Under the pieces are notes generated by a model. That model was not told the origin of the DNA. It saw nothing but the letters and a program-made list of their open reading frames with translations, and did not search any database. Of a stretch of DNA of 53,118 bases, positions 4,011 through 41,229 are shown piece after piece; the first letter of the stretch is position 1, and the number at the start of each line of letters is the position of its first letter. The position numbers and the translations under genes are program-made. Source of the DNA: Acidimicrobiales bacterium (GTDB lineage: Bacteria; Actinomycetota; Acidimicrobiia; Acidimicrobiales; MedAcidi-G1). Location: assembly GCA_014237715.1 (NCBI GenBank), contig JAAZZG010000012.1, positions 1 to 53,118 of the forward strand, in the 5' to 3' direction.

Positions 4011-4391
4011 ATGGCGACGAAGGAAGAGATCCTGGACGCGATCGCCGGGATGACCGTGCTGGAACTTAGTGAGCTGCTGTCGGACTTCGAAGAGAAGTTC
4101 GGCGTGACCGCTGCGGCCCCGGTGGCTGTGGCTGCTGCGGCCCCGGCCGGCGGCGACGCTGGTGGCGAGGAGGAGGAGAAGGACTCCTTCGACGTCGTCC
4201 TGACTGGCGCTGGCGACAAGAAGATCCAGGTCATCAAGGAGGTGCGTTCGTTGACCAACCTCGGTCTGAAGGACGCCAAGGACCTGGTCGATGGCGCTCC
4301 GGGGAATGTGCTGGAAGGCGCTACCAAGGAAGACGCCGAGAAGGCCAAGGAGGCCCTCGAGGCCGCCGGGGCCAGCATCGAGCTTAAGTAG
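4011..4391 (+). CDS. rplL: 50S ribosomal protein L7/L12
   Basis: The multicopy stalk protein recruits translation GTPases. It has 126 residues from the ATG at 4011, with AGGAG (4001-4005) five bases upstream inside the end of rplJ. The N-terminal dimerisation helices ([20 protein letters not shown]) are followed by an Ala/Gly/Pro hinge rich in Glu. The C-terminal factor-binding domain contains [20 protein letters not shown] and ends in the usual ASIELK. Composition and length are normal. Confidence 0.97.
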
Positions 4392-35766: not shown

Positions 35767-37197
35767 ATGACCGGACGCGCAGTGCATCCGCCTTCTTCAG
35801 GACCGGCAGCATCAGGACAGGTACTGCGATTCGGTACTGACGGCATCCGCGCCCGGGCCGGTTCCGTTCTCGATGAGCCGGCGGTAAGGGCCCTGGGGCG
35901 TGCAGCGGCGGCCCATCTGGGAGCCGATTGTGTGGTCATCGGCCGCGACACCCGTGAGTCAGGTCCTGCTCTTGCCCGTGCACTAGCCGAAGGCCTGGTG
36001 GACGGTGGTCTCGACGTCACCTCCCTGGGCGTTGTCCCCACACCTGCCGTCGCACACGAGTGCCAGATCGATGGGGTGGCCGGCGCGGTGGTCTCGGCGT
36101 CGCACAACCCGTGGTTCGACAACGGGATCAAGTTGTTCGCCGCTGGAGGCCGAAAGCTTGATGACCGAGTGCAGTCGGCGATCCAGGATGCGTGGGACGC
36201 CTGCCCCCGCCTCGATGGTCCGGGGGTGGCGCCGGACTGGGACGACCCCTCCGAGGGGACCGCCGCTGGTCGTCGGTGGGTCGACGCGTTGATCAGATGG
36301 GCAATCGATGAGGGGCCTCTCGATGGACAGGAGGTCGCTGGGCAGCAGGTCGACGAGCGACCCTTGGCCGGACGATCCCTAGTCGTGGACTGCGCCAACG
36401 GTGCCACCTCAGCGTTCGCGCCCGACGTCCTGCGTCGACTGGGTGCCGAGGTGGGCGTTCTACACGCCTCGCCTGATGGCCGCAATATCAACGAAGGGTG
36501 TGGCTCGACGCACCCGGACGACCTTCGGGCCGCCGTGCTCCAGACGGGGGCTGACGCCGGCCTGGCCTTCGATGGCGACGGCGACCGGGTGATTGCCGTG
36601 GGCGACGACGGGGCCCTGCTCGACGGTGATGACCTGCTGGCTGTGTGCGGCATCGATCTCCACGATCGTGGGCTGCTGACCGGCGACACCATGGCCGTCA
36701 CCGTCATGGCCAACCTGGGTCTGCGGCGTGCGTTAACCGACCACGGCATCGCCGTGCACGAGACGGCCGTCGGCGACCGCTACGTCCTCGAGGCGTTGGA
36801 GGCCAATGGCTGGGTCCTGGGTGGCGAGCAGTCCGGCCACGTGATCTTCCGCTCCATGGCCACCACCGGCGACGGCCTATTGACGGGCATCCAGGCCCTG
36901 GTGGCGGCGGGCCGTGCCGGCCGAACCCTCGGCGGCCGGGTGGCTGACCTGATGGTGCGCGCCCCCCAGGTGCTACACGCCGTGCCGGTGTCAGCCGATG
37001 GTGTCGCGGTGGTCGCATCGATGGCCGACGAGGTGACCGAGGCCGCCGCCCAGTTGGGCTCGGCAGGCCGCGTGCTGGTGCGCCCTTCGGGGACCGAACC
37101 GGTGGTCCGGGTCATGGTCGAGGCCTTCGACGCGGCCGAGGCCGCAGCGGTGGCCGACCGTCTTGTCGAGGGCGTTCGCCGGGCCGACCGGACCTGA
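35767..37197 (+). CDS. glmM: phosphoglucosamine mutase
   Basis: GlmM converts glucosamine-6-phosphate to glucosamine-1-phosphate for UDP-GlcNAc and peptidoglycan. It has 476 residues. The N-terminus RFGTDGIRA, the phosphoserine loop SASHNP (110-115, catalytic S112), the metal loop DGDGDR (269-274), the sugar loop GEQSGH and the phosphate loop RPSGTEP are all intact. A short extra loop at about 184-198 (LDGQEVAGQQVDERP) is the only oddity. No Shine-Dalgarno sequence precedes ATG 35767. TACGCT (35754-35759) ends seven bases before it, so a leaderless transcript is possible. The next gene makes its substrate. Confidence 0.96.
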   Translation: MTGRAVHPPSSGPAASGQVLRFGTDGIRARAGSVLDEPAVRALGRAAAAHLGADCVVIGRDTRESGPALARALAEGLVDGGLDVTSLGVVPTPAVAHECQIDGVAGAVVSASHNPWFDNGIKLFAAGGRKLDDRVQSAIQDAWDACPRLDGPGVAPDWDDPSEGTAAGRRWVDALIRWAIDEGPLDGQEVAGQQVDERPLAGRSLVVDCANGATSAFAPDVLRRLGAEVGVLHASPDGRNINEGCGSTHPDDLRAAVLQTGADAGLAFDGDGDRVIAVGDDGALLDGDDLLAVCGIDLHDRGLLTGDTMAVTVMANLGLRRALTDHGIAVHETAVGDRYVLEALEANGWVLGGEQSGHVIFRSMATTGDGLLTGIQALVAAGRAGRTLGGRVADLMVRAPQVLHAVPVSADGVAVVASMADEVTEAAAQLGSAGRVLVRPSGTEPVVRVMVEAFDAAEAAAVADRLVEGVRRADRT

Positions 37198-37316: not shown

Positions 37317-40300
37317 ATGTGCGGCATAATCGCGATCCTCCGAAGGCCGTCCTCCCGGGACGTTCCGACCGCGGAGTCGATCCTGACGCTGCTCGTCGAC
37401 GCCACCGCACTGCTCGGCGGACCCGACGGTTCGCAGATGGCTGACCGGGTGGCCGCGGCCGCTGGTCAGATTGCTGAGGCCGATCGTCTGCTGGGAGGCC
37501 TCCCCGGGCTCCTGGCCCTCGATCGGGATTCTGGTCTAGCCGGGCGGATCACTGCGGCACTGGCTGATCTCCCGGATCAGATCGCTGGCATGGAAGCGGT
37601 GCTGGAGCGCCGGGTGACCACTTTCGACGGATCGGATTCATCCGACGGAGTCGAAGCGGCCAATGCTGCCCTGGTGGGACTACGTGATGCCGTCTGGGCC
37701 GTGACCCGGGACAGGATCGGCACCCACGTCGGAGTGGTGTCACTGCGTTCGTCTCGTATCGCACCGAGCGACGCCGGGCTGGGCGTCCTCCTCTCGATCC
37801 AGCAGGCCCTGTCGGCTGTCGACCGCCTCGAGGTCAGGGGCCGGGATTCGGCCGGTATCCAGGTGACGGTCTGGAATCACGATCTGGCCGTTGACGACCC
37901 GGAGGTGGTCGGCCGAACGGTCGATGGTTTGCACCGCACGGGCAGTGTCCGGGTGCTGGACGGCGGTGGTCTGGCCTTCGTGGTCAAGGCGGCAGCCGAG
38001 ATCGGCGAGTTGGGCGACAACACGGCGGTCCTACGTGCGTCGTTGGCCGCCGACGGCCTTCTGGCCCGGGCTCTGGTCGCCCCCGGCGTGGAGGGGTCGA
38101 TCCTGGGACACACCCGGTGGGCCAGCGTGGGCCTGATCTCCGAGTCCAACGCCCATCCGGTGGATTCCGTCCGGGCCGATGGCGTGGTAGTCCCGCTGGT
38201 CACCGCGGTACTCAACGGTGATGTCGACAACCACGCCGACCTGATGGTGTCCGAGGGCCTCAGCGTGGCTCCGGAGATAACCACCGACGCCAAGGTGATA
38301 CCGGTGCTGTGTGCCACCCATTTAGCCGCCGGCCACGATCGTGCCGAGGCATTCCGCCGGGCGGTGAGCGTGTTTGATGGGTCAGTGGCCATCGGGGCGG
38401 CGACCGGCGACGCGCCCGACCGGCTCCTCCTCGCCCTGCGAGGCAGCGGCCAGGGTCTCTACGTGGGTCTGGCCGAGGACGCCTACGTCGTGGCCTCGGA
38501 GCCCTACGGGGTGGTGGAGTTGACGACTGAGTTCGTCCGGATGGATGGCGAGACACCGGCCGATCCGGACGATCGGGGGGCCAGCCGGGGCCAGATCCTG
38601 GAGCTGGATGGTGCGCTGGCCGGGACACTCGACGGGATAGTCCGACGGTCGTATGACGGACGCTTGTTGCCGGTCACCGAGGACGATGTGGCCCGAGCCG
38701 AGATCACCACCCGGGACATCGACCGGGGCGACTACCCCCACTTCCTCCTCAAGGAGATCGGCGAGTCGCCGGACTCGGTCCGGGCCACCCTGCGTGGCCG
38801 ACTTGTTCCTGCCGGCGATACCCCCGCAGGTTGGCGGGTCCGTCTGGGTGAGGACGCGCTGGGAGCCGATGTGCGGGCCGGCCTGTCCGACGGATCGATT
38901 CGACGGATCCTGATCATCGGCCAGGGCACTGCGGCCATCGCCGGTGGCTCGGTGGCCCGTGCCCTCGAGGCTGAACTGGCCGAGTCCAACGGCATCATCG
39001 TGGAGGACCTACCGGCCACCGAACTCTCGGGCTTCGGCCTGACGCCAGACATGTCCGACACCCTCGTAGTGGCCATCAGCCAGTCGGGCACGACGACCGA
39101 CACCAACCGCACCGTCGACCTGGTGCGGGTCCGGGGTGCCCGGGTGGTGGCGATCGTGAACCGGCGCAACAGCGACCTGGTCGACCGGGCCGACGGTGTG
39201 CTGTACACGTCCGATGGTCGCGACGTAGAGATGAGCGTGGCCTCCACGAAGGCCTTCTACGCCCAGGCGGTGGCCGGGATCCTGCTAGCCGTGGCCATTG
39301 CTGATGCGGCCGGAGCCCCCGGTGCGCCCGATCGGGCCGACGTGCTGACCGGGTTGCGGGCCCTGCCCGACGCGATGGTCGAGGTGCTGGGGATGCGTGA
39401 CCAGGTGGCGTCGATTGCCTCACGGCACGCCCCGGGTCGGCGCTACTGGGCCGTGGTGGGTAGCGGACCCAACCTGGTGGCAGCCCGCGAGATCCGGATC
39501 AAGCTGTCCGAGCTCTGTTACAAGTCGATCGCTGCGGATGTCACCGAGGACAAGAAGCACATCGACCTCTCGTCGGAGCCGTTGATCCTTGTGTGCGCCA
39601 CCGGCCTGGTCGGCTCCACGGCCGATGACGTGGCCAAGGAGGTGGCCATCTACCGGGCGCATAAGGCGCTGCCAGTGGTGGTGGCCGACGCTGGCTCGTC
39701 GAGATTCGCCGATGCCCACGACGTGGTGTCCGTACCACCGGTGCATCCCCGTCTGGCTTTCCTGCTGTCCACCATGGTCGGCCACCTGTTCGGCTACGAG
39801 GCGGCCCGGGCCATTGACGCTCAGGCCCACGTACTGCGGTCAGCCCACGCGGCGATCGAGGCCGAGGCCGAGCGCCGCCTGGCCGGCGGAGCGGTCCAGG
39901 CGACGTCGTACGACCCGGGGACTGGATCCGCCGCCCCTGAGGCGTTGCCCGATGCGTTGACCCCAGGCTTGGCCACCGAGTTGGGCGCCGCCGCCGGTAC
40001 CTTCGCCGACGAGTTGCGAAACGGGCGGCTCAACGGACACCTCGAGGCGTCCACCGCGGTGCGCCTGTCGACGTTGTTTCGGTTCGCTCTGGGCGCCGTG
40101 CCGTTGGAGTCGTACCAGTTGGAGTTCGGTCGGGTCGGCACGCCTGCACTGGTGCTGGACGATCTGGCCGCCGCGTTGACCGTGGCAATCGAGGAGCTCA
40201 CCAGACCCATCGACGCCATCAAGCATCAGGCCAAGACGGTGACCGTGGGCATCTCGAGGACTGACGAGACCCTGTTGGACGCCCGCTTGGCCCGCGAGGT

Positions 40301-40844
40301 GCTCGACGCCGGGGCGCCCCGTGATTCGCTCAGCTACCGGACACTTCGGGCACTGGTTGCCCTGGATCCGGCGGTGTCCGACGTCGCCGGCTACACCCGC
40401 TACCGGGTGGACGGCCTGGACGGGGCTTCGCCCACCGCGGCGATCGTGGACCGCGGTGGGGTGTCGACGGGCATCCGCTCGCGTACTGATAGGGACCCGG
40501 CCCTGCGGGGTACCAAGCATCGGGTGGCAGTGGACCGTGACGTCTTGGTGACCCGGGGTGCCCGCGACGACCGGATCATCGTGCTGGTGCCCGAGGTCAA
40601 GGACCGCGAGACGGTGGGTATCACCCTGCTGCACGTGGTGTTGCGCGAGCGCCTCACCCCGGACGTCCTGCGTGGCGTGCTGCAGGGTTACGGCAACCGC
40701 TATTCCGCGGTGCGTGACGCGGTCTGTGAGACTGAGCCCGACCTGCGAGACGACTTGCTAGCCGAGGTGCCGGTGGTCGACCTGTTGACTGACCCGGTGC
40801 CGGACATTGCTGACCGACTTCGGGTCGATCAGCTCCGGGCCTGA
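37317..40844 (+). CDS. glmS: enlarged glutamine-fructose-6-phosphate aminotransferase (GlmS-like, 1175 aa)
   Basis: GlmS makes glucosamine-6-phosphate from fructose-6-phosphate and glutamine. Normal length is about 610; this one has 1175. The glutaminase domain is split: Cys2 (MCGIIAILRR) is followed by about 140 extra helical residues before LEVRGRDSAG (171-180). Then come GHTRWA (264-269), LNGDVDNH (299-306) and D324, so the glutaminase residues are present. SIS1 has ISQSGTTTDTN (587-597) and VASTKAF (641-647). SIS2 has SELCYKS (731-737) and KKH (746-748), matching the isomerase Glu and His. The family's C-terminal LAKSVTVE corresponds to QAKTVTVG at 971-978 (K973), but about 115 residues are inserted before it (about 845-960) and 195 unrecognised residues follow it. 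The start ATG follows AGGAGG. Position after glmM supports the assignment. Confidence 0.85.
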   Translation: MCGIIAILRRPSSRDVPTAESILTLLVDATALLGGPDGSQMADRVAAAAGQIAEADRLLGGLPGLLALDRDSGLAGRITAALADLPDQIAGMEAVLERRVTTFDGSDSSDGVEAANAALVGLRDAVWAVTRDRIGTHVGVVSLRSSRIAPSDAGLGVLLSIQQALSAVDRLEVRGRDSAGIQVTVWNHDLAVDDPEVVGRTVDGLHRTGSVRVLDGGGLAFVVKAAAEIGELGDNTAVLRASLAADGLLARALVAPGVEGSILGHTRWASVGLISESNAHPVDSVRADGVVVPLVTAVLNGDVDNHADLMVSEGLSVAPEITTDAKVIPVLCATHLAAGHDRAEAFRRAVSVFDGSVAIGAATGDAPDRLLLALRGSGQGLYVGLAEDAYVVASEPYGVVELTTEFVRMDGETPADPDDRGASRGQILELDGALAGTLDGIVRRSYDGRLLPVTEDDVARAEITTRDIDRGDYPHFLLKEIGESPDSVRATLRGRLVPAGDTPAGWRVRLGEDALGADVRAGLSDGSIRRILIIGQGTAAIAGGSVARALEAELAESNGIIVEDLPATELSGFGLTPDMSDTLVVAISQSGTTTDTNRTVDLVRVRGARVVAIVNRRNSDLVDRADGVLYTSDGRDVEMSVASTKAFYAQAVAGILLAVAIADAAGAPGAPDRADVLTGLRALPDAMVEVLGMRDQVASIASRHAPGRRYWAVVGSGPNLVAAREIRIKLSELCYKSIAADVTEDKKHIDLSSEPLILVCATGLVGSTADDVAKEVAIYRAHKALPVVVADAGSSRFADAHDVVSVPPVHPRLAFLLSTMVGHLFGYEAARAIDAQAHVLRSAHAAIEAEAERRLAGGAVQATSYDPGTGSAAPEALPDALTPGLATELGAAAGTFADELRNGRLNGHLEASTAVRLSTLFRFALGAVPLESYQLEFGRVGTPALVLDDLAAALTVAIEELTRPIDAIKHQAKTVTVGISRTDETLLDARLAREVLDAGAPRDSLSYRTLRALVALDPAVSDVAGYTRYRVDGLDGASPTAAIVDRGGVSTGIRSRTDRDPALRGTKHRVAVDRDVLVTRGARDDRIIVLVPEVKDRETVGITLLHVVLRERLTPDVLRGVLQGYGNRYSAVRDAVCETEPDLRDDLLAEVPVVDLLTDPVPDIADRLRVDQLRA

Positions 40845-40863: not shown

Positions 40864-41229
40864 ATGATCGGCATCGGAGTGGACCTGGTCGACATCGACC
40901 GGTTCCGAGGCTCGTTGGATCGCACTCCGTCTCTACGCGACCGGTTGTTCCGACCGGCTGAGCGGGCCTACGCCGATGCCCATGTGGACCCTGCCAGCCG
41001 CTACGCGGTGCGGTTCGCGGCCAAGGAGGCGGCACTCAAGGCCCTCGGTCTGGGTCTCGGCGGGATGGCCATGTATGACATCGAGGTGGTGCGCGACGGG
41101 CTGGGGCCTCCTTCGTTGGTACTCCACGGCGAGTCGGCCGAGGTGGCCCGGCGGGCCGGCGTGAGCCGCTGGTTGGTCACCCTGAGCCACACCGACACTC
41201 TGGCCCAGGCGACCGTCGTCGCTCTCTGA
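40864..41229 (+). CDS. acpS: holo-[acyl-carrier-protein] synthase
   Basis: AcpS transfers phosphopantetheine from CoA to apo-ACP. It has 121 residues from ATG 40864. GVDLVDIDRF (5-14) holds the metal-binding Asp, and RFAAKEAALKALG (50-62) the conserved Glu and Lys. The open frame starts earlier inside the previous gene, but the family begins at MIGIGVDLV. It follows the glmS stop by 19 bases and precedes nnr by 14, a conserved acpS-nnr-alr order. Confidence 0.95.
   Translation: MIGIGVDLVDIDRFRGSLDRTPSLRDRLFRPAERAYADAHVDPASRYAVRFAAKEAALKALGLGLGGMAMYDIEVVRDGLGPPSLVLHGESAEVARRAGVSRWLVTLSHTDTLAQATVVAL

Follow-up and report, generated by a model that had tools for sequence, protein, structure and literature searches.

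Architecture of an enlarged GlmS

The window analysed here is a stretch of 53,118 nucleotides, the forward strand of contig JAAZZG010000012.1 (assembly GCA_014237715.1) from an Acidimicrobiales bacterium of the class Acidimicrobiia. It contains a gene for an enlarged form of GlmS, the enzyme that produces glucosamine 6-phosphate at the entry step to uridine diphosphate N-acetylglucosamine (UDP-GlcNAc) and peptidoglycan. A first-pass annotation, made from the sequence alone, had proposed an enlarged GlmS of 1175 residues at this locus. The frame is indeed open throughout, and the protein belongs to a set of 130 distinct homologues, itself included.

Compared with the standard GlmS/GFAT enzymes (TIGR01135; E. 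coli GlmS, 2j6h; human GFAT-1, 6r4g), the enlarged form has three large modules and an internal C-terminal tail (C-tail) (Table 1). Insert 1 interrupts the glutaminase domain after residue 17 with about 134 residues, where about 140 had been annotated. Insert 2, at about residues 837–960, brings about 120 residues (about 115 in the annotation) ahead of the C-tail, and a C-terminal module (C-module) follows the tail. An insert of about 31 residues at 187–217 and a short stretch at about residues 855–880 were recognized in addition. The latter (window 39879–39956, inside insert 2) is missing from most aligned relatives, and its predicted local distance difference test (pLDDT) score is partly below 50 in the model.

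Pfam recognizes only GATase_6 (residues 261–395) and SIS (529–659) in the 1175-residue protein. The NCBI GlmS models match it over its core, and among solved structures E. coli GlmS and human GFAT-1 come closest to it. A chimaera or an annotation artefact could be suspected from a size far from standard and a score below the TIGR01135 cut-off. This is already refuted by 129 more distinct sequences, which have this core and insert 1 in common, come from many assemblies and lie in a mostly conserved slot.

Table 1. Enlarged glmS gene, segments of its product, and conserved neighbours (window coordinates)
Feature	Position	Strand	Remarks
Enlarged glmS gene, 1175 residues	37317..40844	+	Open from ATG without internal stop; homologues
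Residues 1–17: catalytic Cys2 and first strand of glutaminase domain	37317..37367	+	C2 in 130/130 enlarged sequences; strand 3–9 in model
Insert 1, residues 18–151: helical bundle between first strand and helix preceding R-loop	37368..37769	+	
Residues 152–463: remaining glutaminase domain; RGRDSAG 174–180 (R-loop), HTRW 265–268 (Q-loop), NG 300–301, D324	37770..38705	+	
Small insert, residues 187–217	37875..37967	+	Mostly gap in standard sequences
Residues 464–836: SIS isomerase domain	38706..39824	+	
Insert 2, residues 837–960: helical stretch between SIS domain and C-tail	39825..40196	+	
Internal C-tail, residues 961–981 (LTRPIDAIKHQAKTVTVGISR), catalytic Lys973	40197..40259	+	Highest conservation; pLDDT < 50 at 972–982
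C-module, residues 982–1175: predicted PAS/GAF-like alpha/beta fold and helices	40260..40841	+	
glmM, conserved neighbour upstream	35767..37197	+	
acpS, conserved neighbour downstream	40864..41229	+	Start taken at MIGIG

Catalytic residues, ammonia gate and C-tail

Residues were mapped with a HMMER alignment to the E. coli chain and 26 standard GlmS sequences of the class, the E. coli numbers being counted by hand. The functional roles assigned are those that we take the E. coli residues to have. All the catalytic landmarks that had been annotated (Cys2, HTRW, NG, D324, the SIS motifs, Glu732, His748 and Lys973) were recovered by the alignment, and the catalytic residues mapped below are invariant in the 130 enlarged sequences. 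Cys2, Arg267, Trp268, Asn300/Gly301 and Asp324 correspond to C1, R73, W74, N98/G99 and D123 of E. coli GlmS. The nucleophilic cysteine following the methionine and the glutamine-site residues (R73, N98, G99, D123) are present in 130/130 enlarged sequences. Ser588-Gln589-Ser590 corresponds to S347-Q348-S349, Thr593 to T352, Glu732 to E488, His748 to H504 and Lys973 to K603. E488, H504, K603 and the SQS sugar-phosphate motif of the SIS isomerase are likewise found in 130/130, in agreement with the structural alignment.

Other positions distinguish the enlarged from the standard form. Y28 is replaced by Arg176, T76 by Ser270 and E351 by Thr592 in 130/130 enlarged versus 0/26 standard sequences, and L601 by Gln971 in 129/130 versus 0/26. 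A change of S303 to Ala539 was dropped from this list, as alanine also occurs in 8 of the 26 standard sequences. In the hGFAT2 study, the equivalents of Y28, L601, A602 and R26 (converted here from hGFAT2 to E. coli numbers) touch the gate tryptophan (PMC7948480). Two neighbours of the gate have therefore become polar together, with the tryptophan retained.

The 21 residues of the C-tail have a mean pairwise identity of 95% among 117 representatives, the highest of ten regions compared; by the same measure, insert 1 reaches 33%, insert 2 47% and the C-module 53%. This conservation indicates that the tail is still in use though it is no longer the terminus. The internal C-tail and the altered gate residues constitute a natural experiment on the closure of the GlmS site and on ammonia channelling.

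Genomic context and distribution

A second, normal glmS was sought in the window's own genome, as the annotation had proposed. None was found, two weak matches having been inspected, and the NagB model TIGR00502 gave no match in this genome. The enlarged gene is therefore very likely the working glmS.

Genomes were surveyed across the phylum of the window. Among 296 genomes of the class, 118 have the enlarged form (E < 1e-50 with the window protein), 159 the standard form (GlmS model over its cut-off), none both, and 19 neither or a partial match. The two forms were sought in separate searches of the same genomes; the split was tallied by hand from the search tables, and the figure of 159 agrees with an automatic tally. 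The TIGR01135 cut-off is reached by none of the 118 genomes with the enlarged form, and no family holding both kinds was seen among the 296. A second glmS can hardly have been missed in all 118.

The gene order in the window is truA, rplM, rpsI, glmM, glmS, acpS, nnr, alr, where the names glmM and acpS, assigned by recognition, are presumed. Seven chosen genes were sought within about 4 kb of loci fetched from the class. Upstream of the gene, and on its strand, 26/28 enlarged and 18/24 standard loci have a glmM match; downstream, 24/28 and 20/24, respectively, have an acpS match. The suggestion that the additions form a scaffold with GlmM gains nothing from this adjacency, since standard glmS usually adjoins glmM too. 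In the window, Rfam gave one tRNA as its single match and no glmS ribozyme. Taken together, complementarity of distribution, synteny and invariant catalytic residues strongly support the enlarged gene as the putative working glmS of these cells.

The 130 homologues range from 1038 to 1199 residues. All possess insert 1 and the core, and 129 the C-module. One broken sequence (L035) was left out of this set: in genome G149 (L035, L182), a two-contig assembly, a sequencing error or a real split divides the enlarged gene into two overlapping frames within the SIS domain, near residue 752.

The C-terminal profile A1 matches 31 of 396 genomes of the phylum, 22 inside the class and 9 outside. Five genomes of family f91, outside the class, carry the enlarged gene and lack a standard GlmS that passes the cut-off, and in three f91 loci (L205–L207) the enlarged gene has other neighbours. 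Of 592 stretches that matched the pattern in the genome collection, at least 566 code for a relative of the protein's C-terminal part. Among the best 80 of the 566, which were listed, the nearest named relative of the last 340 residues lies on a contig of Acidimicrobiaceae bacterium UBA12569 (97% identity).

The observation is thus wider than that first annotated: the enlarged form of this core enzyme is a variant found across a clade, in Acidimicrobiia and some relatives, and mutually exclusive with the standard form. The group is large, most of what is known of it comes from metagenome-assembled genomes, and it appears to rely on a GlmS of nearly twice the usual size. The curated glmS model rejects this form, so that pathway annotation can miss it. 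No description of this GlmS architecture was found in the open-licence papers searched.

Some genomes and records depart from the general pattern. On contig C313 of G335 (L143, L204), one of the 9 matching genomes outside the class and the sole genome seen with both enlarged and standard GlmS, there is a third, SIS-only match; contamination is 5%, and none of the seven sought neighbour genes lies near the enlarged gene. G181 (family f14; 98% complete, 1.8 Mb) has neither form of GlmS and no strong GlmU match, and is possibly an amino-sugar auxotroph or affected by an assembly gap. The Acidimicrobiia-type enlarged gene also occurs in records titled Bifidobacterium breve, Thermoanaerobacterales, Dehalococcoidia and Acidobacteria (L083, L097, L102, L063, L064, L119). 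The titles of at least L102 and L083, which appear to correspond to G263 and G145 of the window's order, are probably wrong.

Evolution

In a quick tree of the core (32 + 26 rows), enlarged and standard sequences fall on opposite sides of one branch, with a Shimodaira–Hasegawa-like approximate likelihood ratio test (SH-aLRT) value of 100. The mean core identity is 30% between enlarged and standard GlmS of the class, compared with 64% and 52% within the two kinds. A recent insertion into a local glmS is not supported by this separation and low identity.

A tree of rplM, rpsI and glmM (46 rows) requires 6 changes of type, a number as low as this being reached in 0 of 500 shuffles. At least 2 changes are forced by the starred branches. 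This tree results from a quick search only and has several long branches and 24 open forks. With 6 changes, simple vertical descent is not clean; these changes, at least 2 of them forced, suggest replacement in place more than once, in one direction or the other.

Inserts and C-module

Insert 1 is 112–150 residues long in the enlarged family, and at most 4 residues occupy its position in the 26 standard sequences. Its model consists of six helices across residues 19–143, with block means of pLDDT between 63 and 97 (9 of 13 blocks above 90). G64, D124, W127 and D132 are conserved at ≥98%. The insert at 187–217 varies from 5 to 38 residues in the enlarged family and comprises at most 13 residues in the 26 standard sequences.

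Residues 838–1175 were modelled with a pLDDT of 92.1. The best structural match of the C-module (Foldseek, VIA) is the N-terminal, regulatory PAS-type region of the large NAD-glutamate dehydrogenase L-GDH180 (7jsr), over residues 989–1174, and the C-module is predicted to adopt a PAS/GAF-like fold. Like L-GDH180, the enlarged GlmS is an enzyme of nitrogen metabolism with an attached sensor-like module. Unlike it, the module is C-terminal and the catalytic partner is different. No sequence kinship was detected by hhalign (probability 0.5% against 9 sequences). The C-module also differs from the GAF, PAS and dCache sensor domains in that it is not on a kinase or receptor and has no Pfam PAS or GAF match.

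The annotation had proposed that the three segments be searched for domains already described in GlmS; none matched in the libraries searched. With Pfam, only scattered weak matches were obtained for insert 1 (best E 0.0064, in 1 of 39 members) and for the C-terminal region (A1; best E 0.0026, in 1 of 36 members). Against PDB sequences, the C-terminal region and the C-module (A7) gave a weak nucleoporin match alone (E 0.16 and 0.52). Insert 1 matched designed helix bundles (E 0.0025) and, weakly, coiled-coil-like sequences or MutL; these matches were read as an effect of composition. No kinship was found between the C-module and insert 1. An origin of the C-module from viruses or mobile elements was considered and rejected: of 18 pattern stretches in viral contigs, 0 were confirmed as relatives, and nothing below E 0.001 was found in a viral structure library (best 6.1e-3).

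The modules of a working GlmS could be purely structural, setting the oligomer or stabilising the R-loop and C-tail, with no sensing. Inserts 1 and 2 are helical and variable (33% and 47% identity), as packing elements would be, and PAS/GAF domains often dimerise. However, 20 residues of the C-module are conserved at ≥98%, 7 of them charged (R1056, K1067, D1084, R1086, E1093, R1128, E1138), which suits a site better than a spacer, and one species lacks the C-module altogether. A purely structural role is therefore regarded as rather unlikely.

That species is represented by G242 (L036, family f14). Its protein has 1038 residues and ends right behind the C-tail (...AKTVTVGISRR, stop), without the C-module. 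The next frame is nnr-like and overlaps the end of glmS. A tblastn search of the locus with the C-module gave nothing credible, and no acpS was found between glmS and the nnr-like frame in the stretch read (about 4060–4200, contig C38). A deletion of the C-module together with acpS is possible, and the shortening may reflect either genuine loss or a fault in the assembly. A full-length protein is present in G252, which belongs to the same genus as G242. L036 marks the boundary of the module and, if the loss is true, shows that the C-module is dispensable for the enzyme's existence. It also provides a ready comparison with the full-length enzyme.

Cleavage behind the C-tail in the cell would yield an ordinary GlmS and a free domain. 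The low confidence of the model at residues 972–982 (pLDDT < 50), and the end of the G242 protein at exactly that point, are consistent with such processing. It is nevertheless improbable: the GISR sequence beyond the classic end of the tail is conserved at ≥98%, and in the 31 matching genomes the module was not seen as a separate second copy (each had a single match among the scored candidates).

Proposed function

The account favoured here, with moderate confidence, is that the enlarged protein is the only GlmS of the organism, from a separate lineage, and that the C-module and inserts are built-in regulation of the R-loop/C-tail gate. The two-domain amidotransferase core is kept, and modules have been added around the loops of its ammonia channel. 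A helical bundle precedes the R-loop, a helical stretch leads up to the C-tail, and a predicted PAS/GAF-like domain follows directly on that tail. The C-module may bind a small molecule or report the assembly state. Through the joined C-tail, it would set the closure of the fructose-6-phosphate site and the transfer of ammonia. Insert 1 may brace the R-loop side. The supply of UDP-GlcNAc would thereby answer to a sensed signal. As a sensor-like fold attached to the enzyme, the C-module is a candidate for exerting allosteric control directly.

Several observations weigh against this account. The window protein scores 205 bits with the TIGR01135 glmS model (residues 262–832), below the cut-off of 418. 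The C-tail is not at the C-terminus: 194 residues were counted after residue 981, which bears out the internal tail and the 195 residues annotated behind it. The window genome is 92.6% complete, so that a second glmS copy may have been missed for this species. No Pfam PAS or GAF match was found for the window protein or among the families listed for 36 relatives. As the score and the position of the tail depart from GlmS, and the residues and genomic evidence agree with it, the protein is assigned to a GlmS-like sister lineage, one that very likely works as GlmS.

Human GFAT-1 and GFAT-2 are also GlmS cores with added sequence, and a loop and an interdomain linker are tied to regulation in two GFAT studies (PMC7948480, PMC7000685). 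The insertion sites and size differ, however, and GFAT has no added domain behind the C-tail. Sensing of UDP-GlcNAc or other signals had been suggested in the annotation. Sensing as such is favoured by the predicted PAS/GAF-like fold and by inserts next to the R-loop and C-tail in the chain. There is no clear sign that the eukaryotic UDP-GlcNAc site has been retained: in human GFAT-1, His463 contacts UDP-GlcNAc (PMC7000685), and the residue aligned with it in the window protein is Tyr630.

A more specific proposal is put forward tentatively. A PAS/GAF-like sensor on the C-tail, together with a polar gate (Trp-Arg-Gln for Trp-Tyr-Leu), might switch ammonia transfer on and off in a whole lineage of Actinomycetota, by pulling on the C-tail or letting it go, and so govern the amino-sugar supply to the cell wall. 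If true, this control of GlmS would differ from that by GlmR, by the glmS ribozyme and by eukaryotic UDP-GlcNAc feedback.

GlmU and UDP-GlcNAc supply

The modules could instead add a second catalytic step or alter the substrate, the product not being glucosamine 6-phosphate or being passed on internally. The conserved charged residues of the C-module, the adjoining glmM and GlmU scores that nowhere exceed 44.6 bits in the window genome are compatible with this idea. Yet the protein has the catalytic residues and the sugar-phosphate motif of GlmS, the C-module has no convincing enzyme-family match, G242 lacks it, and a GlmU match better than 1e-60 was obtained in 99 of the 118 genomes with enlarged GlmS. 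A second step is thus very doubtful. The added activity offered in the annotation fares no better, given that no matching enzyme family was found and that the C-module is missing from one species. Replacement of GlmU by the modules is likewise not supported by the 99 GlmU matches.

The other 19 of the 118 genomes have no GlmU match of this strength, including 4/4 of family f7 and both enlarged f14 genomes. Some genomes with standard GlmS, such as G059, G126 and G287, also lack one. The curated GlmU cut-off is passed by 171 of the 296 genomes, and the window's order is mostly just under it. The best GlmU match is 1.9e-17 in family f1 (5 genomes) and 8.1e-12 in the window genome, where it sits in an open reading frame of 348 residues resembling a glucose-1-phosphate nucleotidyltransferase.

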